A stretch of DNA of 64,000 bases from Microtetraspora fusca (lineage in GTDB: Bacteria; Actinomycetota; Actinomycetes; Streptosporangiales; Streptosporangiaceae), in contig NZ_BBYK01000040.1 in the NCBI RefSeq assembly GCF_001570365.1, positions 1-64,000 of the forward strand. Direction: 5' to 3'. The notes under the pieces were generated by a model, which had not been told where the DNA came from, did not search any database, and saw nothing but the letters and a program-made list of their open reading frames with translations. Of the stretch, positions 7,324 to 22,275 are shown piece after piece. Position 1 is the first letter of the stretch, and every line of letters begins with the position of its first letter. The position numbers and the translations under genes were made by a program.

Positions 7324-8094
7324 CTAACGCACGGGATGGCCGGCCGCGCGGAGGGCGTCCTTCACTTGGGCGATCTTCAGCTCGCCGAAGTGGAAGACAC
7401 TCGCCGCGAGCACGGCGTCGGCGCCCGCCTCGATGGCGGGCGCGAAGTGCTCCAGCTTCCCCGCGCCGCCCGAGGCGATCACCGGGACGGTGACCGCGGC
7501 GCGTACGGCGCGGAGCATCTCCAGGTCGTAGCCGTCCTTGGTGCCGTCGCCGTCCATGGAGTTGAGCAGGATCTCCCCCACGCCGAGCTCCTGCGCGCGG
7601 CGCGCCCACTCGACCGCGTCGATGCCGGTGCCGCGGCGACCGCCGTGCGTGGTCACCTCGAAGCCGGAGGGGGTGGGCGGCCCGTCCACGACGCGGCGGG
7701 CGTCCACCGACAGCACGACGCACTGGGCGCCGAAGCGCCGGGACGCCTCGGTCAGCAGCTCGGGCCGGGCGATGGCGGCGGTGTTGATCCCCACCTTGTC
7801 GGCGCCCGCGCGCAGCAGCCGGTCCACATCCTCGACCGTGCGCACGCCGCCGCCGACGGTCAGCGGGATGAAGACCTGCTCGGCGGTGCGGCGCACCACG
7901 TCGAGCATGGTCTCGCGGCCGCCCGAGGAGGCGGTGATGTCGAGGAAGGTCAGCTCGTCGGCGCCCTCGGCGTCGTAGCGGCGGGCCAGCTCGACCGGGT
8001 CGCCCGCGTCGCGCAGGTTCTCGAAGTTGACGCCCTTGACCACCCGCCCGGCGTCCACGTCCAGGCAGGGGATGACGCGTACCGCCACCGTCAC
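7324..8094 (-). CDS. hisF: Imidazole glycerol phosphate synthase cyclase subunit
   Basis: A 256-residue (beta/alpha)8 barrel that takes ammonia from HisH and turns PRFAR into imidazole glycerol phosphate plus AICAR. The N-terminal [18 protein letters not shown] holds the first catalytic Asp (Asp12). The second is in the [10 protein letters not shown] strand, and the phosphate loops GGGV and SGGAGK are visible. It is the last gene of the leftward his operon. The GTG start overlaps the ridA stop as GTGA. The partner hisH is upstream, separated by priA and ridA. hisI and hisE are not in the window. Length and motifs are normal. Confidence 0.97.
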
Positions 8095-8507
8095 GGTGCC
8101 TCACCTCCCGGGTCCTCGCGCGTCCCGTCGCCCAGGTACGCCTCGACCTCGACCTCGACCAGCATCCGGGGGTCCACGAGCCCGGCCACCTGGACGCTGG
8201 TGCAGGCGGGCCGGACCGCGCCGAAGACCTCGCCGTGCGCCCGGCCGACGACGTCGAAATCGTCCGCCTTCACCAGGTATATCCGAGTACGGACGACGTC
8301 CTGCACGCTGCCGCCCGCCTTGCCGACGGCGTCGAGCGCGATGCCGATCGCGGTGAGCGTCTGCCGGTAGGCGTCGCCGACGTGCCGGACCTCGCCGTCC
8401 ACGGTGGCGGTGCATCCGGACACCCACACGCGTGAGCCGGCGACCACCGCGCGGGCGTAGCCGTACCGGTCCTCCCACGGGCCGCCGGAGAAGATCCTGG
8501 TGCTCAT
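8091..8507 (-). CDS. RidA/YjgF/YER057c family protein
   Basis: A 138-residue member of the Rid superfamily, small trimeric proteins whose founding member hydrolyses reactive enamine/imine intermediates from PLP enzymes. The fold is recognisable from [24 protein letters not shown], the central [23 protein letters not shown] and the C-terminal [11 protein letters not shown]. In RidA an Arg in the VVRTRIY strand binds the substrate carboxylate, and the Arg is present here. It is wedged between priA and hisF with 4-base overlaps on both sides, so it is made with the histidine enzymes. It may clean up imines formed by HisC or other PLP enzymes, or act on a his intermediate; both are inference. Confidence 0.9.
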
Positions 8508-9229
8508 CGGGCGCTCACCTCCGCCAACGCCTCTTCCAGGGTGAACGCCTGGGCGTACAGCGCCTTGCCCACGATGGCACCCTCGACGCCGTCGGGCACG
8601 AGGCCGGCCAGGGCGCGCAGGTCGTCCAGCGACGACACGCCGCCACTGGCGATCACCGGCCGCTCGGTGCGGCGGCAGACCTCACGAAGCAGGTCGAGGT
8701 TGGGACCGCGCAGCGTGCCGTCCTTGGTCACGTCGGTGACGACGTAGCGCGGGCAGCCCTCCGACTCCAGCCGGTCGAGCACCTCCCACAGGTCGCCGCC
8801 CTCCTGGGTCCAGCCACGCGCCGCCAGGGTGGTGCCGCGCACGTCGAGCCCGACCGCGATGCGGTCGCCGTGCTCAGCGATGATCTTGGCGCACCAGGCG
8901 GGGTCCTCCAGGGCGGCGGTGCCGATGTTGACCCGGCGGCAGCCGGTGGCCAGGGCGGCCGCAAGGGAGGCGTCGTCGCGGATCCCGCCGGACAGCTCGA
9001 CGTCCACGTCCAGGGCGCCCACCACCGAGGCCAGCAGCTCACGGTTGCCGCCGCGGCCGAAGGCGGCGTCCAGGTCCACCAGATGGATCCACTCCGCGCC
9101 GGCCTCCTGCCAGGCGAGCGCCGCGGCGAGCGGGTCGCCGTACGAGGTCTCCGTGCCCGCCTCGCCCTGCACCAGGCGAACCGCCTGGCCGTCGGCGACA
9201 TCAACGGCGGGAAGCAAAACGAGCGACAT
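8504..9229 (-). CDS. priA: Bifunctional HisA/TrpF isomerase PriA
   Basis: A 241-residue barrel. In actinomycetes this enzyme isomerises both ProFAR (histidine pathway) and PRA (tryptophan pathway). Catalytic acids are Asp10 (LLPAVDV) and Asp170 (VTDVTKDGT). The dual-substrate features of PriA are visible: Arg18 in QAVRLV, and the RGWTQEGGD loop with Arg138 and Trp140 that swings between substrates. No trpF is nearby, in line with PriA serving both routes. The ATG at 9229 follows a 150-base gap after hisH that holds hairpins. The stop overlaps the ridA start as ATGA. HisA alone is the alternative name. Confidence 0.95.
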
Positions 9230-9300
9230 CAGTCAGGACCTCCGGTCAAAGAACGACGGTGACGGGCACCTGGATCAGCGGAATCGACGGGCACGGGGAC

Positions 9301-9372
9301 GGCGGGCACGGCGGCCCGCCGTCGCGCGGCGGCCTCCCCCTCACGGCGCTCCGGGGCTCGCGCGGGGAGGCC
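9301..9372 (-). terminator. Paired hairpins in the hisH-priA gap
   Basis: Between hisH and priA lie two stems: GGCGGGC/GCCCGCC (9301-9320) and GGCCTCCCC/GGGGAGGCC (9331-9372). The rest of this operon is joined by overlaps, so this 150-base spacer stands out. It may cause partial termination or processing between the upstream and downstream his genes. No promoter was recognised in it. Confidence 0.35.
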
Positions 9373-9379
9373 GGCCGGT

Positions 9380-10021
9380 TCACAACGTGCTCAGCCAGTT
9401 GGAGAGAAGGACGGCTCCGGCGTCGCCGGACTTCTCGGGGTGGAACTGGGTGGCCATGAGCGGCCCGTTCTCGACGGCCGCGACGAACGGCACGCCGTGC
9501 TCGGCCCAGGTGACCAGCGGGGCGGGGAAGCCCGGTCCCGGGGTGAGCTGCCACTCGCGCACCCCGTAGGAGTGGACGAAGTAGAACCGGGTGTCGGCGT
9601 CGAGCCCGCGGAACAGGACGCTTCCCTCCGGGGCGGACACCGTGTTCCAGCCCATGTGCGGCAGCACCGGGGCGTCCAGGCGCTGGACGACGCCGGGCCA
9701 CTCGCCGCAGCCCTGGGTGTGGACGCCGTGCTCGACGCCCTTCTCGAAAAGGATCTGCATGCCGACGCAGATGCCGAGGACGGGCCGGGCCGCAGCCAGC
9801 CGGCGGGCGACGATGCGGTCGCCCTGGACGCTCTTCAGCCCCGCCATGCAGGCCGCGAACGCGCCGACTCCCGGGACGACCAGGCCGTCCGCCTCGAGGG
9901 CCGCGTCGTGGTCGGAGGTCACCGTGACGTCGGCGCCGGCGCGGGCGAACGCCCGCTCGGCCGAACGCAGGTTGCCCGAGCCGTAGTCGAGGATGACGAC
10001 CCGCTTCGCTACTGCCACCAC
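9380..10021 (-). CDS. hisH: Imidazole glycerol phosphate synthase glutaminase subunit
   Basis: A 213-residue class I glutamine amidotransferase that feeds ammonia to HisF. The nucleophile Cys85 is in VLGICVGMQ, and the His/Glu pair is in [10 protein letters not shown]. The oxyanion strand PGVGAF is present. GTG codons at 10021 and 10018 are both possible starts. Each overlaps the end of the small membrane ORF (10009-10161), so translation is probably coupled. hisF is three genes downstream. Length and motifs are standard. Confidence 0.96.
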
Positions 10022-10161
10022 AAAACCCCCGCGGTCAGCGCCAGCGCGGCTCCCGCGCCGGTGATTATGGCGAGTCCCTTCAGGCCCTGCCGTACGGCGG
10101 AGATGACCCCGCCGATCAGGAAGAGCCCCACGAAGATCATGCCGACGGACGCGAAAGTCAT
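10009..10161 (-). CDS. Small two-helix membrane protein in the his operon
   Basis: This encodes 50 residues. Helix 1 is near residues 4-20 ([17 protein letters not shown]). A short basic loop SAVRQGLKG follows, then helix 2 near 30-48 ending GVLWWQ. The ATG overlaps the hisB stop as ATGA, and its TAG lies 13 bases inside the hisH start region. That is stronger support than length alone, since it bridges hisB and hisH by coupling. I recall a comparable small ORF at this place in other actinomycete his clusters but know no function. A hairpin topology with the basic loop in the cytosol is expected. Confidence 0.7.
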
Positions 10162-10775
10162 AGCACGCCCTTGGTGCTCGGCACGCCGGTCGCGCGCGGG
10201 TCCCGCTCCGACGCCTCGCGCAGCGCGCGGGCGAGGGCCTTGAACTGCGCCTCCACGATGTGGTGCGCGTTGCGCCCGTACGGCACGTGCACGTGCAGGC
10301 AGACCGCGGCCTGGGCGACGAACGACTCCAGGATGTGCCGGGTCATGGTCGTGTCGTAGTCGGGGCCGATCATCGGGGCCATGCCCTCGGGCTCGGTGTG
10401 CACGAGGTACGGCCGGCCGGACAGGTCCACCGTGACCTGGGCGAGCGACTCGTCGAGGGGGCAGGCCGCGGTGCCGAACCGCCGGATGCCCGACTTGTCG
10501 CCCAACGCCTCGCGGAACGCGGCGCCCAGGGCGAGCGAGGTGTCCTCGATCGTGTGGTGGGAGTCGATGTGCAGGTCGCCCTGCGTCTTGACGGTCAGGT
10601 CGAACAGCCCGTGCTTGCCGAGCTGCGTCAGCATGTGGTCGAAGAACCCGACCCCGGTCGCCACGTCGACGACGCCGGTGCCGTCGAGGTTGACCTCGAC
10701 CAGCACGGACGTCTCCTTGGTGGCGCGCTCGACCCGCCCGACGCGGTTCGCGCCCGCAACGCGCGCCTCACTCAT
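10158..10775 (-). CDS. hisB: Imidazoleglycerol-phosphate dehydratase
   Basis: A 205-residue monofunctional HisB that dehydrates IGP to imidazole acetol phosphate. The manganese ligands sit in the repeated motifs [42 protein letters not shown] and [20 protein letters not shown]. The phosphatase half of the enterobacterial enzyme is absent, as expected in actinomycetes. The ATG overlaps the hisC stop as ATGA, and the stop overlaps the next small ORF the same way. Confidence 0.97.
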
Positions 10776-11890
10776 CCGAGGACCCCCTCCAGAGCGGCCC
10801 GGAAGGCCGCCATCTCATCACCGGTCCCGATCGACACCCGCAGCCAGCCGTCCGGACCGGTCTCCCTGATCAGCACGCCGCGTTCGAGCACGCCCTCCCA
10901 AACGGCGTGCCGATCCGGAAACTTACCGAATAGCACGAAATTGGCGTCGGAGTCTGCGACGGAGAGGCCACGTTGCCGTAGCCAGTCCACCGTCGCGTCC
11001 CGCTCGGCCCGCAGCGCGTCCACCGTGCCGAGCAGCTCCGTCCGGTGCGCGAGCGCGACCCGGGCCGCGGCCTGCGTCAATGTGGACAGGTGGTACGGCA
11101 GGCGGACCAGCAGCAACGCGTCGATCACGGCGGGGTCGGCGGCGAGGTAGCCGAGGCGGGTGCCCGCCATGGCGAACGCCTTGGACATGGTGCGCGTGAC
11201 GATCAGCCGGGGGTTGCCCGGGAGCAGCGACAGCGCCGAGGGCGTACCGGTGCGGGCGAACTCGGCGTACGCCTCGTCCACGACGACCATGCCGGGCGCG
11301 GCGGCGAGGATGCGCTCGATCACCCGCAGCGGCAGCGCCGTGCCGGTGGGGTTGTTCGGCGAGGTTAGGAACACCACGTCGGGGCGGTGCTCCTCGATCA
11401 CGCGGACGGCCCGCTCCTCGTCGATCGCGAAGTCCTCCTCGCGCGCCCCGTCGATCCACCGGGTGGCGGTGACGCCCGCGATGATCGGGTGCATGGAGTA
11501 GGACGGTTCGAAGCCCATCGCGACGCGGCCGGGGCCGCCGAACGCCTGCAGGATCTGCTGGATGACCTCGTTGGAGCCGTTGGCCGCCCACACCTGCCGG
11601 GCGGTCAGGCCGTGGCCGAGATGGTCGGCGAGGTCCTTGCGCAGGTCGAGCGCGTCCCGGTCGGGGTAGCGGTTGAGCGTCGCCGCGCCCTGCCGTACGG
11701 CCCGGGCCAGGTCGTCGACCAGGGCCGGCGAGGGCGGGTAGGGGTTCTCGTTCGTGTTGAGCCGGACCGCCACGTCGAGCTGAGGGGCGCCGTAGGCGGT
11801 CTTGCCCCGCAGGTCGTCCCGGATGGGCAGGTCGTCGAGCGTCGTCACCGCTGTCGTCACGTTCTCTCGCTGGTCGTCCCGGGCCGTCAC
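10772..11890 (-). CDS. hisC: Histidinol-phosphate aminotransferase
   Basis: A 372-residue fold-type I PLP enzyme that transaminates imidazole acetol phosphate with glutamate. [13 protein letters not shown] near residue 35, [17 protein letters not shown] and the Schiff-base lysine segment [15 protein letters not shown] are all visible, as is the C-terminal WLRVSIGT substrate-carboxylate Arg. The GTG start at 11890 overlaps the hisD stop as GTGA. The open frame continues upstream only as a shadow within hisD. Other aromatic substrates are possible in actinomycetes, but the operon context fixes the histidine role. Confidence 0.96.
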
Positions 11891-13194
11891 GAGGGGATCC
11901 CCCAGTCGAACCGGGCGCGTACGGCGGCGCCGTGCGCGGGCAGGTCCTCGGCGTCGGCGAGCACGCACACGTGGGGCGCGGCGCCGGCCAGCGCCTCCCG
12001 GCTGTACTCGACGACGTGGATGCCGCGCAGGAACGTCTGCACGGACAGCCCCGAGGAGTGGCAGGCGCAGCCACCGGTCGGCAGCACGTGGTTGGAGCCC
12101 GCCATGTAGTCGCCGAGGGACACCGGGGAGTAGGGCCCGACGAAGATCGCTCCGGCGTTGCGCACCCGGGCGGCCACCGCCGCCGCGTCCGCCGTCTGGA
12201 TCTCCAGGTGCTCGGCGGCGTACTCGTCGACGACGCGCAGCCCGTCGTCGAGGGAGGAGACGAGGACGATGCCGGACTGGCGGCCGGAGAGCGCCTCGGT
12301 GATGCGCTCGGAGTGGCGGGTGGCGGCGACCTGGCCGGGCAGCTCCTTCTCGACCGCGTCGGCGAGCTCGGGGCTGGTGGTGACGAGGACCGACGCGGCG
12401 ATCACGTCGTGCTCGGCCTGGCTGATCAGGTCGGCGGCGACGTGGACGGGGTCGGCGGTCTCGTCGGCGAGGATGGCGATCTCGGTGGGGCCCGCCTCGG
12501 AGTCGATGCCGATGCGGCCCTTGAGCAGCCGCTTGGCCGCGGCGACCCAGATGTTGCCGGGGCCGGTGACCATGGTGGCCGGCGCGCACTCCTCGGTGCC
12601 GTAGGCGAACATCGCCACGGCCTGGGCGCCGCCGACGGCGTAGACCTCGTCGACGCCGAGCAGGGCGCAGGCGGCGAGGATCGTGGGGTGCGGGAGCCCG
12701 CCGAACTCCTTCTGGGCGGGCGAGGTGACGGCGAGGGAGTCGACCCCGGCCTCCTGGGCGGGCACCACGTTCATGACGACGCTGGACGGGTAGACGGCCC
12801 GGCCTCCCGGCACGTACAGGCCGACGCGGTCGACCGGGACCCACCGTTCGGTGACCGTGCCGCCCGGCACGACCCGGGTGGTGGTGTCGGTGCGGCGCTG
12901 GTCGCGGTGGACCGCGCGGGCCCGCCTGATCGACTCCTCCAGGGCGGCGCGCACCGCCGGGTCGAGGGCGGCCAGGGCGCGGCCGAGCTCCTCCACCGGG
13001 ACCCGGGTGGACTCCAGCTCGACGCCGTCGAATCTCGCGGTCAGCTCCCGTACGGCTGCCGCGCCGCGATGGCGCACGTCCTCACATATGGGCCGCACCT
13101 TCTCCAGGGCGGCCTCGACGTCGAGCTCGGCGCGGGGCAGCACATCGCGCAGGTCACCGGGCAGGGAACCGCGCAGATCGATACGGGAAATCAC
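11887..13194 (-). CDS. hisD: Histidinol dehydrogenase
   Basis: A 435-residue zinc enzyme that oxidises histidinol to histidine in two NAD-dependent steps. Visible motifs are [23 protein letters not shown], the [12 protein letters not shown] loop, [14 protein letters not shown] with zinc and base residues, and AEHLEI. It is first in the leftward his operon. The GTG at 13194 was chosen because TAGACT (13206-13201) ends 6 bases before the GTG at 13200 and 12 before 13194; a transcript starting at the usual -10 distance begins at 13194 itself. The GTG at 13200 is the alternative and adds two residues. No ribosome site is seen. Confidence 0.95.
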
Positions 13195-13200
13195 CCTCAC

Positions 13201-13206: not shown

Positions 13207-13275
13207 CGGACGGCGGCGGGACGATCGCTTTCGGTCCAGCATGCGGACAGCGCGTTGCGTGCTGGTGACCGACTA

Positions 13276-13304
13276 TTGACATCTTTCGGTCACTAATCCA
13301 CACT
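13276..13304 (+). promoter_or_regulatory. Promoter of the DeoR gene
   Basis: A consensus -35 TTGACA (13276-13281) is followed after 17 bases by CACACT (13299-13304). The first operator-like repeat lies in the spacer and the second begins at the -10, so bound regulator would block RNA polymerase. Confidence 0.5.
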
Positions 13305-13335
13305 TTCGGGCAATAGCAGTCAATTTCGGTCATCA
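13284..13335 (+). promoter_or_regulatory. Triple DeoR-family operator repeats at 20-bp period
   Basis: Three direct repeats, TTTCGGTCACTA (13284), TTTCGGGCAATA (13304) and TTTCGGTCATCA (13324), start exactly 20 bp apart, about two helical turns. An isolated TTTCGGTC lies at 13229. DeoR/GlpR-type repressors bind TTTCG-like repeats as tetramers. The last repeat reaches within four bases of the ATG at 13339, so autoregulation is likely. Confidence 0.6.
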
Positions 13336-13338
13336 GGG

Positions 13339-14112
13339 ATGATGCTCATGCTTCCGGCCCAGCGCCACCAGCGCATCGTCGAGGCACTGTCGCAGGCCGG
13401 CACGCTGCGCACCGAGGACCTGGCCGAGCAGCTCGGCGTCTCACACGAGACCGTCCGCCGCGACCTGGCGACCCTCGAACGGCGCGGCCTGCTGGCCCGC
13501 GTACACGGCGGCGCCACGGCGGTCACCTCCGGCACCGGCGAGGAGTCCTCCTACCTGGAACGCTCCACCGCGCAGGCCGAGGCCAAGGCGGTCATCGGCG
13601 CGCAGGCGGCCCAGGTGCTCCGGCCGGGCCAGACGGTGATCATCGACGTGGGCACCACGGCCGTGCAGGCGGCGCGGGCGATCCCGCCCGGCTTCCGCGG
13701 AGTGGTGGCGACGTGCTCGCTGCTGGTCGCCGCCGAGCTGGCCGGGCGGCCGGGCGTCGAGGTGCTCGTCGCCGGCGGCCGGGTCAGGCAGGGCGACCTC
13801 GCGGTCTCGAACGCGCAGACCGTGGCGTTCTTCCAGGACCTGCGGGCCGACGTGGCGCTCCTCGGCTCCGGCGGCCTGACCGCGGGCGCCGGGCTGACCG
13901 ACTACTACCTCGACGAGGTCGCGACGAAGCGGGTCATCCTCGCGAACACGGCGCGCACCTATGTGCTGGCCGACAGCACGAAGCACGGCAGGGTCGCCGC
14001 CTACCGGGTGTGCGGCCTGGACGGATTCTCCGGTCTCATCACGGACCGGGAACCGCCCCCCGAACTCGCATCCGCCCTGGTCAGAGCGGATGTGGAGGTA
14101 ATAAGGCCGTAA
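13339..14112 (+). CDS. DeoR/GlpR-family transcriptional regulator
   Basis: This encodes 257 residues. The N-terminal winged helix-turn-helix (residues 7-60) has the DeoR signature QLGVSHETVRRDLATLERRGLLARVHGGA. The C-terminal sugar-phosphate-sensing domain (about 75-235) shows DVGTTAVQAARAI, VLVAGGRVRQGDLAVSNAQTV, DVALLGSGGLTAGAGLTDY and VLADSTKHGR. DeoR proteins usually respond to a phosphorylated sugar or polyol made by the kinase they control; here that would be the product of the FGGY kinase two genes downstream. ATGs at 13339, 13342 and 13348 are all possible. It is co-oriented with the transport and oxidation genes that follow. Confidence 0.92.
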   Translation: MMLMLPAQRHQRIVEALSQAGTLRTEDLAEQLGVSHETVRRDLATLERRGLLARVHGGATAVTSGTGEESSYLERSTAQAEAKAVIGAQAAQVLRPGQTVIIDVGTTAVQAARAIPPGFRGVVATCSLLVAAELAGRPGVEVLVAGGRVRQGDLAVSNAQTVAFFQDLRADVALLGSGGLTAGAGLTDYYLDEVATKRVILANTARTYVLADSTKHGRVAAYRVCGLDGFSGLITDREPPPELASALVRADVEVIRP

Positions 14113-14182
14113 ACTCGGCCCGGCGGCGCGGCCACGCCGCCGGGCCCGGACCGCTCACTTTCTTCGCAGCAGGAGACGATCC

Positions 14183-15676
14183 ATGTCCCATCGTTCCACG
14201 CCCGCGCCCGGGGTCACGACCGGGAGCGACAGCGCCGCCGACGAGGCGATCTCGCACGCGGGATACTCCCAGCAGTTCAAGCGCACCCTGAAGTCGTTCG
14301 AGTCCTTCGCGGTCGCCTTCTCGTTCATCTCGATCACCACCGGCCTGTTCTCGACGTACGGCACCGTGCTCGGCAAGGGCGGACCGGCCGGCATCTGGAC
14401 CTGGCCGATCGTGGGCGCGGGCACCGTGATGGTGGCCCTGGTCTACGGCATGCTCGCCAGCCGGATCCCGCTGTCCGGATACAGCTACCAGTGGGCGAGC
14501 CGGCTGGCCTCGCCGGTGCTCGGCTGGTGGTTCGGCTGGGTGTCGTTCGCGTTCCTCGCGATCGTCGCCGTCGCGGTCGACTACGGACTCGCCCAGACGG
14601 CGCTGTTCCCGCTGTTCGGCTGGACCTACACCCCGCTCAGCGGCGCGCTGGTCACCGCGGTCGTGCTTCTCGTGCAGATGGTGCTCATCATCTGGTCCAC
14701 GCCCATCACCACCAAGATCAACAACCTGGCGGTGAGCGCGGAGATCGTCGCGATGATCGGGCTCACTCTGCTCATCGCCGGGTTCGCGATCTTCGGCGGC
14801 CACGCCGAGTGGTCCAACCTGACCTCGACCGGCGTCGCCTCGCAGGACGGCTACTTCGGCTGGCTGGGGCCGTTCATGCTCTCGGCCCTGCTCGGCGCGT
14901 TCACCCTGGTCGGCTGGGAGTCGGCGGCCAACCTCGCCGAGGAGACCATCAACCCCAAGAAGGTCGTCCCCCGGGCCATGGTCCGCGCGATCCTGCTCAG
15001 CGTCGCCATCGGCATGGTGTTCCTGATCGTTGTCACCGCCGCGCTCGGCACGGACGTCGCGGGCGTCACCGCCTCCTCCGCCCCCGTCGCCCAGGTCGTC
15101 GAGAACGTGGTCGGCGCCGGCGTGGCGCGGGCCTTCCTCGTCGTCGTGAGCGTGGCCATCTTCGCCTGCGGCCTGGTCATCATGGTGAGCTGCAGCCGGC
15201 TCGTGCACGCCATGGCCCGCGACGGCCGGGTGCCGTGCTCCGCCGCGCTGAGCCGGGTGCCGCGCGCCACCGGCGGCCCCACCTGGGCCACCGTCGTCGC
15301 CGCCGGCGCCTCGATCCTGATCGTCCTCACCTTCTCCGGCAACGCCGACGCCCTGGGCGAGCTGCTCGGCGCGGGCACGCTGATGCCCGCCATCCTGTAC
15401 GCCGGGACCGTCGCGCTCTACCTCGGCACCCGGCGCAAGTACCGCCCGCAGCCGGACGACTTCCGGCTCGGGAAGTGGGAGAAGCCCGTCGTCGCGGGCG
15501 CCGTCGTCTGGCTGCTCATCGAGCTGAGCATCTTCCTGATCCCGTCCGACTTCCGCATGGCGCAGCTCTACGCGCTCGGCTCCCTGGTGCTCGGCGCCGT
15601 CGTGTTCCTGATCGTCTGGGCCACCCGCAGGGACCGGCTGACCGCCGAGCCCGGCATGGGGGTGGACGCGCTGTGA
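14183..15676 (+). CDS. APC-superfamily permease (amino acid/choline transporter-like)
   Basis: A 497-residue permease with about twelve hydrophobic helices. The region SFESFAVAFSFISITTGLFSTYGTVLGKGGPAGIW is typical of APC helix 1. GWESAANLAEETINPKKVVPRAM matches the conserved loop of the amino acid/choline transporter group, whose members carry GABA, choline and other amines. A charged N-terminus of about 40 residues precedes it. CAGGAGACGATCC supplies the ribosome site. The stop overlaps the kinase GTG as GTGA. An amine permease feeding a glycerol-kinase-like enzyme is unusual, since glycerol operons normally carry GlpF, so the substrate may be a nitrogen-containing polyol or amino alcohol. 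That is inference. Confidence 0.88.
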   Translation: MSHRSTPAPGVTTGSDSAADEAISHAGYSQQFKRTLKSFESFAVAFSFISITTGLFSTYGTVLGKGGPAGIWTWPIVGAGTVMVALVYGMLASRIPLSGYSYQWASRLASPVLGWWFGWVSFAFLAIVAVAVDYGLAQTALFPLFGWTYTPLSGALVTAVVLLVQMVLIIWSTPITTKINNLAVSAEIVAMIGLTLLIAGFAIFGGHAEWSNLTSTGVASQDGYFGWLGPFMLSALLGAFTLVGWESAANLAEETINPKKVVPRAMVRAILLSVAIGMVFLIVVTAALGTDVAGVTASSAPVAQVVENVVGAGVARAFLVVVSVAIFACGLVIMVSCSRLVHAMARDGRVPCSAALSRVPRATGGPTWATVVAAGASILIVLTFSGNADALGELLGAGTLMPAILYAGTVALYLGTRRKYRPQPDDFRLGKWEKPVVAGAVVWLLIELSIFLIPSDFRMAQLYALGSLVLGAVVFLIVWATRRDRLTAEPGMGVDAL

Positions 15677-17118
15677 CCACCGTTCTCGCCATCGACCAGG
15701 GGACGTCCGGCACCAAGGCCGTCGTCGTCGGGCCGGACGGCGCCGTCCTGGCGCTCGCCGAGGTGCCCGTACGGCCGGCGTACCTGCCCGGGGGCCGGGT
15801 CGAGCAGAACCCGCAGGAGCTGCTCGACTCGGTGCTCGCGGCGGGCCGCCAGGCGGTCGCGCAGGGGGGCCGGCCGATCGACGCGGTGACCCTGGCCAAC
15901 CAGGGCGAGACCGTGCTCGCCTGGGACCCGCTGACCGGGCGGCCGCTGACGACCGCGCTGGTGTGGCAGGACCGCCGCGCCGAGGACGTCTGCGCCGAGC
16001 TGGCCGACCAGGCGGACAGGGTCGCGGAGCTCACCGGGCTCGTGCTCGACCCGTACTTCTCCGCGCCCAAGATGGCATGGATCCGGCGCAACCTCACCTC
16101 CGAAGGGGTGGTGACCACCAGCGACACCTGGCTGATCCACCATCTGACCGGCGAGTTCGTGACCGACGCCTCCACCGCGAGCCGGTCGCTCGTGCTCGAC
16201 CTGGACGTCGTGGACTGGAGCCCCGAGCTGCTGCGCCTGTTCAAGCTCGACGGCGAGCGGCTGCCGCGGATCGTCGCGTGCGACGAGGTCGTCGGCACCA
16301 CCCGGGCCTTCGGCGGGGAGATCCCCGTCGGCGGCCTGATCGTGGACCAGCAGGCCGCCCTCCTCGCCGAGGGCTGCCTGCGGCCCGGCGAGGCCAAGTG
16401 CACGTACGGCACCGGCGCGTTCCTGCTCGCCAACACCGGCGAGCGCGCCGTGCGGTCCACCTCCGGCCTGACCACCTCCGTGGCGTGGCGGGCCAGGGGC
16501 GGCACGCCGTACTGCGTGGACGGGCAGGTCTACACGGCGGCGTCGGCGGTGCGCTGGCTCGGCGACCTCGGCTTCATCGGGGGCGCCACCGACCTGGACG
16601 CGATCGCCGCGCCCGACAGCCAGGGCGCGCTGTTCGTCCCCGCGCTCGCCGGGCTCGCCGCGCCCTGGTGGCGGCCGGACGCGACAGCCTCGTTCCTCGG
16701 CATGACGCTGTCCACCCGGCCCGGGCACCTGGTGCGCGCCGTGCTGGAGGGCGTGGCCGCGCAGGTGGCCGACCTCGCCGAGGTGGTCGCCCGCGACCTC
16801 GGCGCGTCGCTGACCCGGCTGCGGGTGGACGGCGGCCTCACCCGGTCGGCCACGCTGATGCAGGCGCAGGCCGACCTCGCCCAGATGCCGGTGGACGTCT
16901 ACCCGTCGCCGCACGCGACCGCGCTCGGCGCCGCCGCCATGGCCCGGCTCGCGGTCGATCCCGCGCTGGGCCTGGAGGAGGCGGTGCCCGCGTGGACGCC
17001 GTCCATGACGTACGAGCCGCGCTGGACGGGCGAGCGGGCCGCCGAGTTCCTGGCCCGATGGCGCCGGGGCGTGGACGCGGCCATGGACAGGGCGGATCTG
17101 ACGGGGAGTGAGGCATGA
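15673..17118 (+). CDS. FGGY-family kinase, GlpK-like with altered substrate site
   Basis: This encodes 481 residues, aligning along its length with glycerol kinase: IDQGTSGTKAVV (phosphate 1), VWQDRR, DPYFSAPKMAW, the catalytic VDQQAAL (Asp225), TYGTGAF (phosphate 2) and RVDGGLTRSATLMQ (adenosine). In E. coli GlpK glycerol is held by Arg83, Glu84, Tyr135 and Asp245. Here the NQRET motif reads NQGET, so the Arg is Gly78 while Glu79, Tyr128 and Asp225 remain. A ligand larger or charged differently at that hydroxyl is likely. It is coupled by GTGA to the permease and by ATGA to the flavoprotein. Plain glycerol kinase is the fallback call. Confidence 0.88.
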   Translation: MTTVLAIDQGTSGTKAVVVGPDGAVLALAEVPVRPAYLPGGRVEQNPQELLDSVLAAGRQAVAQGGRPIDAVTLANQGETVLAWDPLTGRPLTTALVWQDRRAEDVCAELADQADRVAELTGLVLDPYFSAPKMAWIRRNLTSEGVVTTSDTWLIHHLTGEFVTDASTASRSLVLDLDVVDWSPELLRLFKLDGERLPRIVACDEVVGTTRAFGGEIPVGGLIVDQQAALLAEGCLRPGEAKCTYGTGAFLLANTGERAVRSTSGLTTSVAWRARGGTPYCVDGQVYTAASAVRWLGDLGFIGGATDLDAIAAPDSQGALFVPALAGLAAPWWRPDATASFLGMTLSTRPGHLVRAVLEGVAAQVADLAEVVARDLGASLTRLRVDGGLTRSATLMQAQADLAQMPVDVYPSPHATALGAAAMARLAVDPALGLEEAVPAWTPSMTYEPRWTGERAAEFLARWRRGVDAAMDRADLTGSEA

Positions 17119-18578
17119 ACACGCGGCAGATGAGGTACGGCCCGCTGCCGGTCGAGAGGGTCGACGTGGCGGTGATCGGCGGCGGGGTCGTCGGCGCCGC
17201 CGTGGCCCGGGCGCTGTCGGCGTACGAGCTGTCGGTCGCCCTGGTCGAGGCGCGTGCCGACGTCGGCGACGGCACGAGCAAGGCCAACACGGCCATCCTG
17301 CACACCGGGTTCGACGCCAAGCCCGGCACGCTGGAGTCCCGGCTGGTACGGCGCGGCTGCGAGCTGCTCGCCGACTACGCGACCAAGACCGGCATCCCGG
17401 TCGAGCGCACGGGGGCGGTGCTGGTCGCCTGGACCGAGGAGGAGCTGGCCGCGCTGCCGGGGCTGGCCGCCAAGGCGGCCGAGAACGGCTACGAGCGGTG
17501 CGAGATCGTCGACGCCGAGGAGGTCTACCGGCAGGTCCCGGCGCTGGCGCCGGGCGCGCTCGGCGGGCTGACCGTGCCCGACGAGTCGATCATCTGTCCG
17601 TGGACCACCACGCTGGCGTTCGCCACGGAGGCGCTGTCCCGCGGGGCGTACCTGCTGCTCAACACCAGGGTCGAGGGCGTCGAACCGCCCTCCGGCACGG
17701 CTGACACGGTATTGCGGACCAGCCGGGGCACGCTGCGCGCGGGCTGGGTCGTCAACGCCGCCGGGCTCGGCTCGGACGTGATCGACGGCCTCTTCGGGCA
17801 CAAGCGGTTCACGGTCACCCCGCGCCGGGGCGAGCTGTTCGTGTTCGACAAGCTCGCCCGGCCGATGGTGAACCGGATCGTGCTGCCGGTGCCCAGCTCG
17901 CGCGGCAAGGGCGTGCTGGTCAGCCCGACGATCTACGGCAACATCATGCTCGGCCCGACCGCCGAGGACCGGGACGACCGGACCGACACCTCCACCTCCG
18001 AGGACGGCTTCGCGTTCCTGCTGGAGAAGGGCAGGAAGCTGATGCCCGCCCTCCTGGAGGAGGAGGTCACCGCCTCGTACGCGGGCCTGCGCGCGGCCAC
18101 GGAGCACGGCGACTACCAGGTGTTCCTGGACGCCGGGCAGCGCTACCTCGTGCTCGGCGGCATCCGCTCGACCGGCCTCACGTCGGCCATGGCGGTGGCG
18201 GAGCACGCGCTCGGCCTGCTGGGCGAGGCCGGGCTGCGGCTCGACGCCAAGGCGACGCTGCCGGACCCGCCGCGGATGCCCAACATCGGCGAGGCGTTCC
18301 CGCGCCCCTACGAGCGCGCGGACCTCATCGCCGAGGACCCGGCGTACGGCACGGCCGTGTGCTTCTGCGAGCGGGTCACCGAGGGGGAGATCAGGGACGC
18401 GCTCGCCTCGCCCATCCCGCCCGCCGACATCGACGGGCTGCGCCGCCGTACGCGGGCGCTGATGGGCCGCTGCCAGGGCTTCTTCTGCGGAGCCGAGGTC
18501 GAGAAGCGCCTGTGCGCCGGGGTGGCGCGGGAGCACGGGGAGAACGGGGACACCGAGAAGACGGGGGAAGCGCAGTGA
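17115..18578 (+). CDS. GlpA-like FAD oxidoreductase with C-terminal [2Fe-2S] BFD domain
   Basis: This encodes 487 residues. The DAO-type flavoprotein domain (about 1-380) opens with VDVAVIGGGVVGAAVARAL and has GTSKANTAILHTGFDAKPGT and GGIRSTGLTSAMAVAEH near its end. A BFD-like domain follows with Cys416, Cys418, Cys453 and Cys458 (CxC-x34-CxxxxC), suited to a [2Fe-2S] cluster. This architecture occurs in anaerobic-type glycerol-3-phosphate dehydrogenases and in the Thermotoga/Clostridium gene neighbourhoods where GlpK, this protein and an NAD(P)/FAD oxidoreductase are neighbours. Here it would oxidise the phosphorylated product of the FGGY kinase and pass electrons to the next gene product. 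Coupled on both sides by 4-base overlaps. Confidence 0.88.
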   Translation: MNTRQMRYGPLPVERVDVAVIGGGVVGAAVARALSAYELSVALVEARADVGDGTSKANTAILHTGFDAKPGTLESRLVRRGCELLADYATKTGIPVERTGAVLVAWTEEELAALPGLAAKAAENGYERCEIVDAEEVYRQVPALAPGALGGLTVPDESIICPWTTTLAFATEALSRGAYLLLNTRVEGVEPPSGTADTVLRTSRGTLRAGWVVNAAGLGSDVIDGLFGHKRFTVTPRRGELFVFDKLARPMVNRIVLPVPSSRGKGVLVSPTIYGNIMLGPTAEDRDDRTDTSTSEDGFAFLLEKGRKLMPALLEEEVTASYAGLRAATEHGDYQVFLDAGQRYLVLGGIRSTGLTSAMAVAEHALGLLGEAGLRLDAKATLPDPPRMPNIGEAFPRPYERADLIAEDPAYGTAVCFCERVTEGEIRDALASPIPPADIDGLRRRTRALMGRCQGFFCGAEVEKRLCAGVAREHGENGDTEKTGEAQ

Positions 18579-19843
18579 GCGGCACGAACGGCGTCGCGTC
18601 GGACGTCACGACCGAGAGCCCGGACGTCGCCGTCGTCGGGGCCGGGCCGTCCGGACTGACCGCGGCACGGGAGCTCGCGGCCTCGGGGCTGGACGTGCTG
18701 GTGCTCGACCGGGAGCGGCAGGCCGGGGGCATCCCCCGGCACAGCGACCACACCGGGTACGGCCTGCGCGACCTGCGCCGGGTCATGAACGGCCCGGCGT
18801 ACGCGCGGCTGCTCGCCGAGCGGGCGGTCGAGGCGGGCGCCCGCGTGCGGACGTCGGCGATGGTCACCGGCTGGGCCGGGGAGCGCTCCCTCGACGTCAC
18901 CACCCCCGAGGGCCGGATCCGGGTGGACGCCAGCGCGGTCGTGCTGGCCACCGGCGCCAGGGAGCGGCCCCGTACGGCACGGCTGGTGCCGGGCGACCGG
19001 CCGCCCGGGGTGATGAACACCGGCCAGCTCCAGAACCTCGTCCACCTGCACCACCGCGAGGTCGGCACGCGGGCCGTGATCGTCGGCGCGGAGCTGGTGA
19101 GCTGGTCGGCGGTGCTGACGCTGCGCGAGGCCGGGTGCCGCACCGTGCTGATGACGACGGAGCACCCGCACGCGGAGTCCTACGCCGCGTTCAGCGTGCC
19201 GGGCCGGGCGGTGCTGCGGGTGCCGGTGGCGACGCGGACCCGGGTGGCCCGGATCATCGGGCACCACGCGGTGGAGGCGGTCGAGGTCGAGGACCTCGCC
19301 ACCGGGGCGCGGCGCACGGTGCCGTGCGACACGGTGATCTTCACGGGCGACTGGATCCCCGATCATGAGCTGGCCCGCGCCGCCGGCCTCGCCCTCGACC
19401 CCGGCAGCAAGGGGCCGCTGGTGGACAACGCGCTGCGCACCAGCCGTCCGGGCGTCTTCGCGGTGGGCAACCTGGTCCACCCGGTGGACACCGCCGACGT
19501 CGCGGCGCTGGACGGCCACCACGTGGCCCGGCACGTACGCGACTACCTGGCGGGCGTCCTGCCGCAGGGTCCGGGCATCCCGCTGCGGGCGGAGGCGCCG
19601 TTCACCTGGGTGTCCCCCGGGCTGATCCGTCCCGGAGCGGGGACGCCTCCGCGCGAGCGGATCCTGCTGTGGTCGGCCGAGCAGCGGCTCGTCGCCCGGG
19701 TCGAGGTGACGCAGGACGGACGGCGGATCGCCCGCCGTACGCTCCCTTGGCCGGTCTCCCCCGGCCGGGTCTTCCGCGTGCCGTCGTCGCTGCTGTCCGG
19801 CGCCGATCCGCACGGCGGCCCGATCACCATCGCGCTGGCGTGA
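18575..19843 (+). CDS. FAD/NAD(P)-dependent oxidoreductase, GlpA partner type
   Basis: A 422-residue pyridine-nucleotide-type flavoprotein: FAD-binding VAVVGAGPSGLTAARELAASG, GGIPRH, ATGARERPRTARLVPGDRPPG, a second nucleotide fold from about residue 165 (TRAVIVGAELVSWSAVLTL), then GVFAVGNLVHPVDTADVAALDGHHVA. The GAELVSW segment lacks a clean GxGxxG, so NAD(P) binding there may be weak. In the related Thermotoga-type clusters this protein follows the GlpA-like enzyme and is followed by a DUF1667 gene. DUF1667 is absent here. The final 90 residues are extra to the core fold. GTGA overlap with the previous gene. The likely role is the electron-transfer partner of the upstream dehydrogenase. Confidence 0.86.
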   Translation: MSGTNGVASDVTTESPDVAVVGAGPSGLTAARELAASGLDVLVLDRERQAGGIPRHSDHTGYGLRDLRRVMNGPAYARLLAERAVEAGARVRTSAMVTGWAGERSLDVTTPEGRIRVDASAVVLATGARERPRTARLVPGDRPPGVMNTGQLQNLVHLHHREVGTRAVIVGAELVSWSAVLTLREAGCRTVLMTTEHPHAESYAAFSVPGRAVLRVPVATRTRVARIIGHHAVEAVEVEDLATGARRTVPCDTVIFTGDWIPDHELARAAGLALDPGSKGPLVDNALRTSRPGVFAVGNLVHPVDTADVAALDGHHVARHVRDYLAGVLPQGPGIPLRAEAPFTWVSPGLIRPGAGTPPRERILLWSAEQRLVARVEVTQDGRRIARRTLPWPVSPGRVFRVPSSLLSGADPHGGPITIALA

Positions 19844-19848
19844 CCGAC

Positions 19849-19885
19849 GGCCCGCCTCCGCCACGGAGCACACCGGGGGCGGGCC
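19849..19885 (+). terminator. Hairpin ending the permease/kinase/flavoprotein operon
   Basis: GGCCCGCC (19849-19856) pairs with GGCGGGCC (19878-19885) just after the stop of the last flavoprotein gene. It has no U-run. Confidence 0.5.
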
Positions 19886-20042: not shown

Positions 20043-21434
20043 TCACGCCCGGGAGCGGGACGCGCGGGCGGTCAGGCAGCCGAACACGGCGATCAGGGCG
20101 AAGCCGAACAGCAGGTAGTGCGCCGAGCGGAGGGTGGACGGCTCCCCGAGGTTGACCAGCACCCCGGCGAGGGCGGAGCCGAAGGCGCTGGCGATGAGCT
20201 GCACGGTGTTGATCGCCGTGGTCGCCCGGCCCGCCTCCTCCTGGTCGTCCGTGCTGCCCATCACCGCGGTGGCCAGGTGCGGGAAGGCCATGCCGATCCC
20301 GGCTCCGGCGATCATGTACGTCACGATCCACAGGATCATGGTCGGCCCGCCGGCGTTCTCCGCCTGCAGGAGCCCGGTGAGCGCCAGGCCGGTGGCGAGC
20401 ACGGCGGGCCCGGCGACGCGGATCCGCCGGATCGTCGCCGGGCGGACGGCGTTGGCGCTGAGGAACTGGGCCGTGGACCAGCCGAGCGACAGCGCGGCGC
20501 CGAGGAACCCGGCCGCCAGCGGCGCCAGGCCGCCGAGCCGCTGCCCGAACAGGGGGATGAAGGTCTCGGCGGTGGAGCCGATCGCGAGGACGACGATCGT
20601 CAGATAGATCCACTTCAGCGGCGAGCCGCCCGAGAACGTCAGGGCGGGCAGCACCCGGACCTCCGCGCGGCGCTCGTGGAGGAGGAACAGCGCGACCAGG
20701 GCGAGCGCGCCCGCGACGGCGAGCGCGGTGAACGCTCCGCGCGGCAGGACGCCGGCCAGGCTGATCAGCGCCGCCGCCCCGGTGAGCAGGGCCAGCGACG
20801 TCCCGGGAATCGGCCCGGTGGCGACGCCGCGTTCGCCACGCGGCAGCGCCCTGGGCACGATGAAGGCGATCGCCACGGCCAGGGCCGCGAGCGCCCCGAA
20901 CGCCAGCCGCCACGCGCCGATCTGGGCGAAGAGCCCGCCGAGCGCGGGCCCGACGAAGGCCCCGATCCCCCACATCGCCGACACGAGGGCCGCGCCCCTG
21001 GTCCAAAGGTGCGGGGGCAGGGCGGAGCGCATGACGGCGAGCCCCAGACCGGCGAGGAGCCCGCCACCGAGGCCCTGGATCGCGCGCCCCGCGAGCAGGA
21101 GCTCCATCATCGGGCTCGCCGCGCAAATCACGGTGCCGAGCGTGAAGGCGCCGAACCCCGTCAGGTACGCGCCGACGGCCCCGCGCGACGCAAGAATCCT
21201 GCTGACGAGCATCGAGGAGATCACCGAGGCGATCAGGAAGACCGTCGCGTTCCAGGCGTAGAAGCGTTCCCCGCCGATGTCGCGCACCGCGGTCGGGAGC
21301 AGGCTGGTGGTCACGTAAACGTTGATCGCGTAGAGGGCGACCCCGCCGGCGAGGACGACGGACGTCCCGATATGTCCAGGGCCGAGCAGCTCGCGCCAGG
21401 TCCCGACCCTGGTGCCGTCATCAAGCAAAGTCAT
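20043..21434 (-). CDS. MFS efflux transporter, SoxR-controlled
   Basis: A 463-residue major facilitator protein with at least 12 hydrophobic segments. The antiporter-like motif GRAIQGLGGGLLAGLGLAVM and the A-like loop RILASRGAVGAYL suggest the DHA2 drug-export group. It diverges from the soxR fusion gene. Its promoter has TTGACC and TAAGGT separated by 19 bp with a SoxR box between them, the layout of SoxR-activated promoters. The predicted transcript starts at the ATG, so it is leaderless. In actinomycetes SoxR answers redox-cycling pigments and quinones directly, and exporters are usual targets, so this is probably an efflux pump for such compounds. Confidence 0.88.
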   Translation of the reverse strand: MTLLDDGTRVGTWRELLGPGHIGTSVVLAGGVALYAINVYVTTSLLPTAVRDIGGERFYAWNATVFLIASVISSMLVSRILASRGAVGAYLTGFGAFTLGTVICAASPMMELLLAGRAIQGLGGGLLAGLGLAVMRSALPPHLWTRGAALVSAMWGIGAFVGPALGGLFAQIGAWRLAFGALAALAVAIAFIVPRALPRGERGVATGPIPGTSLALLTGAAALISLAGVLPRGAFTALAVAGALALVALFLLHERRAEVRVLPALTFSGGSPLKWIYLTIVVLAIGSTAETFIPLFGQRLGGLAPLAAGFLGAALSLGWSTAQFLSANAVRPATIRRIRVAGPAVLATGLALTGLLQAENAGGPTMILWIVTYMIAGAGIGMAFPHLATAVMGSTDDQEEAGRATTAINTVQLIASAFGSALAGVLVNLGEPSTLRSAHYLLFGFALIAVFGCLTARASRSRA

Positions 21435-21441
21435 GCCAGGG

Positions 21442-21472
21442 ACCTTAGAATCTCAAGCGCACCTGAGGTCAA
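21442..21472 (-). promoter_or_regulatory. SoxR-type promoter with 19-bp spacer and SoxR box
   Basis: On the minus strand, -35 TTGACC (21472-21467) and -10 TAAGGT (21447-21442) are 19 bp apart. The dyad TCTCAAG-CGCA-CCTGAGG (plus strand, 21451-21468) lies in the spacer and resembles CCTCAAG-N4-CTTGAGG. Overlong spacers that need the MerR-type activator are the hallmark of SoxR regulation. Seven bases separate the -10 from the MFS ATG. Confidence 0.7.
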
Positions 21473-21483
21473 CTGGAGGTCCG

Positions 21484-22275
21484 GTGAACCGGAGATCCGA
21501 TGAATTGCTCTCCGTCGGCGACGTCTCGCGCCGCACCGGTGTGGCCGTCTCCGCGCTCCACTACTACGAGCAGCTCGGGCTGATCTCATCACAGCGGACC
21601 GCGGGGAACCAGCGCCGCTATCCGCGGCACATGATCCGGCGCGTCTCCCTGATCCTGGTGTCGAGGCGGCTCGGCATCTCACTGGCCGACGTGCGCGAGG
21701 CGTTCTCCGGCCTGCCGCACGACCGGGCGCCGAGCCCGCGCGACTGGGCGCGGATCTCCCGCCGCTGGGACGACCGGCTGGCGGCCAAGAGGTTCGAGAT
21801 CGAGCAGCTTCGCCGCGAGCTTCTCGGCTGCATCGGATGCGGCTGCCTGTCGATGACGTCGTGCACCCTCCTGAACGCGCAGGACGTCCTTGGAGGGCGG
21901 GGCCGCGGGCCGCTCCGGCTGGGAACGGACCACCTGGAGCTCTCCGCCGGGGCGCCCGGCGGCGAGCCCGAGGACCACCGTGCGGACGGCGACCTGACCG
22001 ACGACGAGTGGGCGCGGCTGCGGCCGCTGCTGCCGGAGCCGGAGCCCGGCGGCCGGGGGCGCAGGCGGCGCGACCAGCGCCAGGTCGTCGACGGGATCCT
22101 GTGGCGCACCCGCACCCGGGCGCCCTGGCGCGACCTGCCCGAGCGGTACGGCCCCTGGCAGACCTGCTACGAGCGGTACCGGCGGTGGGTCGACGACGGC
22201 ACCTGGCCCCGCGTGCTGGACCACCTCCACCGGCCCGGCGCTGCCTCGGCAATTTCCAGACAGGACGTCTGTTAA
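21484..22275 (+). CDS. soxR: SoxR regulator fused to a DUF4096/IS5-type transposase N-terminal domain
   Basis: This encodes 263 residues. Residues 9-75 are the MerR winged helix (SVGDVSRRTGVAVSALHYYE), followed by a coiled dimer helix. The [2Fe-2S] motif is Cys116-x2-Cys119-x-Cys121-x5-Cys127, diagnostic of SoxR. The usual protein ends near residue 145. Here a linker leads to residues 171-249, which match the N-terminus of IS5-family transposases (LTDDEWARLRPLLPEP, VVDGILWRTRTRAPWRDLPE, YGPWQTCYERYRRWVDDGTW). No DDE catalytic domain follows. GGAGG lies 4 bases before the GTG. It may be a captured transposon end or a recruited DNA/protein-binding domain. It is divergent from its likely target. 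Confidence 0.88.
   Translation: MNRRSDELLSVGDVSRRTGVAVSALHYYEQLGLISSQRTAGNQRRYPRHMIRRVSLILVSRRLGISLADVREAFSGLPHDRAPSPRDWARISRRWDDRLAAKRFEIEQLRRELLGCIGCGCLSMTSCTLLNAQDVLGGRGRGPLRLGTDHLELSAGAPGGEPEDHRADGDLTDDEWARLRPLLPEPEPGGRGRRRRDQRQVVDGILWRTRTRAPWRDLPERYGPWQTCYERYRRWVDDGTWPRVLDHLHRPGAASAISRQDVC

Follow-up and report, generated by a model that had tools for sequence, protein, structure and literature searches.

What does an operon consume that joins a kinase resembling glycerol kinase to an amine-type permease and a pair of flavoproteins? The question is raised by a locus of Microtetraspora fusca (assembly GCF_001570365.1, genome size 9.0 Mb) within the 64,000-nt stretch of contig NZ_BBYK01000040.1 that was analysed here (positions 1 to 64,000, the window), in which a deoR gene is followed by genes for an APC-family permease, an FGGY kinase, a DAO-BFD dehydrogenase and a flavoprotein. 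An earlier note on this DNA had proposed that an amino alcohol, or some other polyol that is not plain glycerol, is taken up, phosphorylated and oxidized. The computational comparisons support this proposal and favour its amino-alcohol half, as indicated by the loss of an arginine in the kinases of all relatives examined, the APC permease as the usual carrier, the absence of DUF1667, and eutH, eutBC or a glutamine-synthetase-like gene beside single proteobacterial modules. As judged from sequence, it is reasonably probable that the operon forms a self-contained, DeoR-repressed unit for the use of a small cationic amino alcohol as a source of carbon and nitrogen. An amine as the substrate is likewise favoured with moderate confidence, and serinol (2-amino-1,3-propanediol) would be the best single candidate, although a tentative one.

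The kinase shares with GlpK its fold and most of the residues that contact glycerol, whereas it differs in carrying Gly78 in place of Arg83 and a valine in place of the glycine that precedes the catalytic Asp, in falling below the equivalog cut-off (421 bits against TIGR01311, cut-off 590), and in its separate branch. Sequence and fold comparisons with the PDB both place glycerol kinases first; for the AlphaFold model (predicted local distance difference test score, pLDDT, 91) the top 50 are all titled as such, with 31–38% identity. PMC3245297 describes a glycerol site in GlpK where Arg83, Glu84, Tyr135 and Asp245 form hydrogen bonds with the ligand and Phe270 packs against it; the arginine also appears as a glycerol ligand in PMC2680290 and PMC7765489, the first of which pairs Arg83 of the enzyme PfGK with Glu306. 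Four of these five specificity positions are kept in the window kinase (Glu84, Tyr135, Asp245 and Phe270), as are the equivalents of Trp103 and Gln246, and the replacement of Arg83 leaves the GlpK signature incomplete. After kinases shorter than 441 aa and copies at least 97% identical were dropped, 137 sequences were reduced to 115, i.e. 104 relatives including that of the window and 11 controls. Glycine occupies the Arg83 position in 104 of the 104 relatives, and the 11 GlpK-like controls chosen beforehand (two from the same genome) are exactly the 11 that carry arginine. The relatives also have Asp283 and Gln285 as opposed to the Glu (11/11) and Ser (10/11) of the EGS motif in the controls, positions that are taken, via this motif, to correspond to Glu306 and Ser308 of PfGK, and Val224 stands just before the catalytic Asp in all 104, where the 11 controls have Gly. 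The two sets branch apart with a support of 100 in a quick tree, in which the program flagged long branches. Because a positive charge is lost while the acidic residues are kept, a cationic ligand would fit such a site.

Because similarity to the window kinase or dehydrogenase was the criterion for collecting the 104 kinases, their uniform glycine reflects kinship in part, and kinases fetched by way of the dehydrogenase constitute a less circular test. A dehydrogenase search of 396 genomes of the phylum gave 80 places, 14 of operon type (own included; at least 51% identical) and 66 of glycerol type (28–41%). The surroundings of the other 13 operon-type and of 27 of the 66 glycerol-type places were examined, which gave a readable kinase at 12 of the 13 (L227 is truncated at a contig end) and an identifiable one at 5 of the 27. 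A proteobacterial sample, likewise found with the dehydrogenase, consists of plasmid-borne modules only, for which the gene tables are incomplete. Kinases so obtained carry Gly in all modules without DUF1667 (23/23; 12 actinobacterial and 11 proteobacterial) and Arg in all cases beside DUF1667 (5/5). The proteobacterial enzymes also have Val before the catalytic Asp (11/11), and are 38–41% identical to the window kinase over the aligned part, compared with 39% for the GlpK of the same genome. An NQGE versus an NQRE motif separates both groups examined and could serve to correct annotation and flux models. Relatives of the window kinase are annotated as glycerol kinase or FGGY kinase, and those NQGE members that bear the former label are probably not real glycerol kinases; in PMC8151288, PA1487 figures as another potential glycerol kinase, with GlpK the only one characterised.

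DUF1667 follows the same division. By tblastn it is found in 27 of the 27 glycerol-type loci (one member confirmed by Pfam), and in none of the 42 family loci (L039-L080), the 80 loci from named genomes (L122-L201), the 13 operon-type loci (within L202-L241) or the 11 proteobacterial FGGY modules. The earlier statement that the operon lacks GlpF and DUF1667 holds, in that no MIP gene lies inside it and DUF1667 has no match in the whole genome (of 14 control genomes, only that of Thermotoga maritima matched). These observations bear on the possibility that the operon is a second glycerol route, in which an atypical glycerol kinase and a glycerol 3-phosphate (G3P) dehydrogenase would act beside a permease of unrelated cargo. 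The nearest families, glycerol kinase and type 2 G3P oxidase, and the intact G3P-site residues described below would agree with such a route, whereas the score below the GlpK cut-off, the glycine maintained across two phyla, the missing DUF1667, and the presence elsewhere in the genome (contig C64) of a MIP/GlpF gene that adjoins an Arg-type GlpK gene render it improbable. GlpF itself failed as a separating mark, as the GlpF of this genome finds no MIP protein in the 40 loci L202-L241, those of glycerol type included, and in one of the 80 loci L122-L201 (L159, MIP at 237-1067 and kinase at 7532). The absence of MIP near the module proves nothing, since glycerol-type loci are also without it. 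On C64 (29943-49430, L082) the MIP-GlpK pair occurs with ABC genes (by sequence reading), a DeoC-like aldolase gene, and GlpD-like and FGGY genes (by Pfam); the GlpD-FGGY-DeoC and ABC cluster is possibly of erythritol type, a label of our own. On C47 (110889-125620, L088) three consecutive genes encode an FGGY kinase, a GlpD-like dehydrogenase and a 520-aa protein, an arrangement that may be similar to the PA3024-PA3026 operon discussed in PMC8151288.

The dehydrogenase retains the traits expected of an enzyme acting on a G3P-like compound. Its best NCBIfam model is the type 2 G3P oxidase NF033460 (217 bits, below the cut-off of 460), and H63, K265, R326 and S352 together with the four Cys of the BFD domain are kept in 111 of 111 operon-type dehydrogenases. 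These residues align with H51, K258, R320 and S348 of GlpO from Mycoplasma pneumoniae (PDB 4x9m), which we take to have catalytic and phosphate-related roles under these numbers. At the same positions the 27 glycerol-type enzymes have His in 27, Lys in 24, Arg in 27 and Ser in 26, and ten further positions split the two types, including Y322 and T353, close in sequence to R326 and S352. As the H, K, R and S are kept, the enzyme probably acts on a G3P-like phosphate ester, the surroundings of which are somewhat altered. Compared with GlpO, the window enzyme has an additional BFD domain, a separate flavoprotein gene and a score below the NCBIfam cut-off; the first two of these make a dehydrogenase more likely than an oxidase. 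The flavoprotein gene is the second 3′ of the kinase gene in 99 of the 104 relatives (two of the other five are contig ends), and its product is probably the electron-transfer partner of the dehydrogenase. A DAO-type dehydrogenase followed by a Pyr_redox-type partner also characterizes the GlpTk-NOX-MOX anaerobic G3P dehydrogenase complex of Thermococcus, Thermotoga and Clostridium (PMC11962113), where MOX, in our own reading, would correspond to DUF1667. In contrast to that type, the window set is without DUF1667, has a fixed partnership with the NQGE kinase and departs at the ten discriminating positions, the operon-type dehydrogenase being 33–41% identical to the GlpTk/DUF1667 glycerol-type enzymes. 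An AlphaFold model of the dehydrogenase was left out as poor (pLDDT 54).

The constancy of the module and the identity of its carrier were followed across the actinobacteria. Among 297 genomes from the family, counting this one, 294 have GlpK-like matches at E ≤ 1e-60, and 42 places besides the window are at least 55% identical to the kinase, the next best reaching 45%. In these loci, some of them on cut contigs, the dehydrogenase gene adjoins the kinase gene in 42/42, with the flavoprotein gene in 41 (one contig ends), deoR in 36 and the APC gene in 29. A scan of named genomes, from which the best 80 further loci were kept (some from the same species as the first 42), placed the module, among the matches listed, in Microtetraspora, Microbispora, Streptosporangium, Streptomyces, Mycolicibacterium, Nocardioides, Rhodococcus, Amycolatopsis and Arthrobacter; the top four of these named matches are all from Microtetraspora (93–95% over the dehydrogenase). 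The dehydrogenase gene directly follows the kinase gene in 104 of 104 non-redundant relatives, a pairing that is more than chance. A comparison of kinase-APC neighbourhoods across actinomycetes, as the earlier note had suggested, finds the APC gene directly 5′ of the kinase gene in 68/104, and the two genes overlap in 55 of the 68, which tells further against glycerol as the substrate of the kinase. The permease itself reaches 196 of 740 bits with TIGR03428 and 161 of 598 bits with TIGR00907, its best NCBIfam models, and probably carries an amine. In the 36 loci where APC is not directly upstream, other transporters are near some; one representative per transporter type was checked by Pfam or NCBIfam. 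They include an amino-acid ABC transporter with an amine-oxidase-like gene (3 loci), NCS1 (1), an ABC transporter of SBP_bac_6 type (1), further kinds of APC, and an SSF transporter beside a DMFA2-like gene (1). Genes with DMFA2_C (dimethylformamidase-like) stand beside the module in L072, L075, L078 and L181 with two transporter types (L072 and L181 by profile check, the other two by similarity), which suggests an amide precursor.

Modules of proteobacteria provide further indications of an amino alcohol. The Pseudomonas aeruginosa module consists of deoR, dehydrogenase, flavoprotein and kinase genes beside another APC gene and eutH, the product of which exceeds the EutH equivalog cut-off (705 vs 575 bits); in Chelatococcus, eutBC follow deoR, and then come TRAP genes and the module; and in Paracoccus glutamine-synthetase-like, aldehyde dehydrogenase and alcohol dehydrogenase genes precede TRAP genes, deoR and the module. 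In Agrobacterium the order is an oligopeptide-type ABC transporter, a creatininase-family gene, a C-N hydrolase gene, the module, DUF1937, an APC gene (product 45% identical to the window permease), a class II fructose-bisphosphate aldolase gene (fba) and a fructose-bisphosphatase gene (fbp); the creatininase-family and C-N hydrolase genes are possible amide-splitting neighbours. Roseateles, Sinorhizobium and Ensifer have the module, DUF1937 and an APC gene of the Agrobacterium type. Overall, the 11 FGGY modules include four with this APC type, five with TRAP, one with eutH and another APC, and one with ABC, and a DUF1937 gene is near five of the 11 (L265, L268, L271, L273 and L275). In Mesorhizobium a gene annotated as choline/ethanolamine-kinase family replaces that of the FGGY kinase. 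The likeness to Eut systems lies in the class of substrate and in the eutH or eutBC genes beside two of the 11 FGGY modules, whereas the window operon has neither an ammonia-lyase (EutBC) nor a microcompartment gene, and its kinase would act first.

On account of eutH and eutBC, ethanolamine is the main rival among substrates. In this alternative, which has the amine in common with the reading favoured here, ethanolamine or a different amino alcohol bearing a single hydroxyl (e.g. 2-amino-1-propanol) would be phosphorylated, and phosphoethanolamine would yield glycolaldehyde phosphate and ammonia, with an aldolase then joining the former to dihydroxyacetone phosphate (DHAP). The fba and fbp genes 3′ of the Agrobacterium APC gene could make and dephosphorylate the resulting pentulose bisphosphate, but they also fit gluconeogenesis from DHAP. 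Moreover, the retained glycerol ligands and the G3P-type site suit a three-carbon isostere of glycerol, and glycolaldehyde phosphate needs an extra enzyme, none of which is encoded in the window operon; we regard ethanolamine as a rather unlikely substrate.

For a serinol-like substrate the operon would be sufficient in itself. Once imported by the APC permease, the amino alcohol would be phosphorylated on a primary hydroxyl by the NQGE kinase. Its phosphorylated form would be oxidized at C2 by the DAO-BFD dehydrogenase together with the flavoprotein, with electrons passing out through FAD, the [2Fe-2S] domain and this partner. Serinol phosphate differs from G3P in having an amine at C2; a DAO-fold enzyme acting at that carbon would produce an imine, which on hydrolysis would yield DHAP and ammonia, with no further enzyme needed. 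PMC3222319 describes the formation of serinol phosphate from DHAP by RtxA, and of serinol from it, in rhizobitoxine producers; serinol is also reported as an amide in Campylobacter capsules. It is conceivable, if doubtful, that a phosphorylative serinol pathway common to Actinomycetota and Pseudomonadota, the catabolic counterpart of the DHAP aminotransferase reaction in rhizobitoxine synthesis, is hidden under glycerol kinase and FGGY kinase labels. Such a pathway would let amino alcohols enter glycolysis, with liberation of ammonia but no ammonia-lyase; for biocatalysis it would supply a phospho-amine dehydrogenase and a kinase that naturally acts on amino alcohols. In searches of the open-licence PMC literature no paper on the operon was found, and the combination of serinol with glycerol kinase returned nothing related.

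Several observations weigh against an amino alcohol, or against serinol in particular. The eutH and eutBC genes, one sighting each, speak for ethanolamine no less than for serinol, and TRAP transporters, which are more typical of sugars or acids, occur in 5 of the 11 proteobacterial modules. Gly78 and Val224 are the sole changes common to the actinobacterial and proteobacterial kinases, and in six aligned proteobacterial kinases position 283 is Glu or Asp and position 285 is Gly. The dehydrogenase could equally oxidize an alcohol, and that of Mesorhizobium, in which the His and Lys are missing, may have a different substrate; the Mesorhizobium kinase also scores weakly against named models. 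Several loci show no recognised transporter beside the module, including five with deoR directly before the kinase gene, and a HAD-like gene near the module in five loci (L072, L152, L153, L155 and L166, by sequence reading) is not accounted for by the proposed pathway. The version found in Rhodococcus, Gordonia and Mycolicibacterium (L157, L182 and L197) fits poorly, and neighbours in different lineages may be unrelated. Three of the 104 loci have a CUT2 sugar ABC transporter, with a DMFA2-like gene. These three, in which the transporter genes lie 5′ of deoR and no APC gene is present, also accord with a nitrogen-free polyol (erythritol, threitol or 1,2-propanediol), for which the loss of the arginine would make room. 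However, a tetrulose phosphate needs further enzymes, whereas no neighbour cluster outside the module exceeds 20 of the 104 loci (most clusters are unnamed by function), and the cluster that we label erythritol-type lies elsewhere in the genome; a polyol of this kind is accordingly very unlikely.

Two of these neighbourhoods deserve description. The flanks of L157, L182 and L197 hold another APC gene and aminobutyraldehyde-dehydrogenase-like, DapA-like and trans-3-hydroxyproline-dehydratase-like genes (L157 by profile scan, L182 and L197 by similarity). Hydroxyproline, hinted at by the Rhodococcus neighbours, was not generalised as a substrate because it is confined to these three loci. The HAD-like gene overlaps the flavoprotein gene in L153, and in L270 the annotation places a HAD family hydrolase near deoR.

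The region 5′ of deoR contains a candidate promoter and, between its TTGACA hexamer and the deoR start, three direct repeats that are probably the DeoR operator (Table 1). The promoter was missed by a consensus scan and its second hexamer is weak; a TTGACA followed by repeats also lies 5′ of deoR in close relatives. An exact pair of repeats has two matches in the window as opposed to none in 100 shuffles, and a shorter pair pattern is matched exactly at only two sites genome-wide, both of them at the operon; with one mismatch allowed there are 23 further genome matches, compared with 12 for the reversed control pattern. Among relatives, CGGKCA pairs at the 20-bp spacing stand 5′ of deoR in 27 of 67 and are absent, in this strict form, in 40, whereas other spacings from 12 to 39 give 0 or 1 of 67; pairs at a spacing of 40 (11 of 67) probably reflect the third repeat. 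The repressor has the haloarchaeal GlpR as its best NCBIfam model (177 bits, below the cut-off of 300). Since the sole exact operator sites in the genome are at the operon, the DeoR regulon is probably the operon alone, and the product of the pathway should therefore be a central metabolite, as DHAP would be.

Table 1. Features of the operon and its control region in the window
Feature	Position	Strand	Description
Candidate deoR promoter	13276..13304	+	TTGACA 13276-13281, 17 bp, CACACT 13299-13304; read by eye
Candidate DeoR operator	13284..13332	+	Three direct repeats TTTCGGKCA at 13284, 13304 and 13324; spacing 20 bp
deoR	13339-14112	+	DeoR/GlpR-family repressor, 257 aa; Pfam HTH_DeoR and DeoRC
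APC-family permease gene	14183-15676	+	497 aa; Pfam AA_permease_2
FGGY kinase gene, NQGE subfamily	15673-17118	+	481 aa; Pfam FGGY_N/C
DAO-BFD dehydrogenase gene	17115-18578	+	487 aa; Pfam DAO and Fer2_BFD, C-terminal BFD [2Fe-2S] domain
Flavoprotein gene	18575-19843	+	422 aa; Pfam Pyr_redox_2

The chain of four overlapping genes described earlier behind deoR is borne out by the GTGA (15673), ATGA (17115) and GTGA (18575) junctions and by the Pfam domains of all five products; an in-frame ATG at 13348 may be the true deoR start. The limits given in the earlier note, 13229 and 19885, lie close to the promoter-operator region and to a GC-rich hairpin (z −1.9), respectively. No T-run was found at this hairpin, and a promoter/terminator scan of the region gave no matches. 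Downstream, at 21412-22275 (+), a MerR-like open reading frame continues into what by sequence reading appears to be a fragment of an insertion-sequence transposase. On the other side, divergent histidine biosynthesis genes (8504-13200, minus strand; HisA, HisH, HisB, HisC and HisD-like, named by sequence reading) adjoin the operon promoter, and the his genes keep this position next to the operon in loci from both Microtetraspora and Microbispora.

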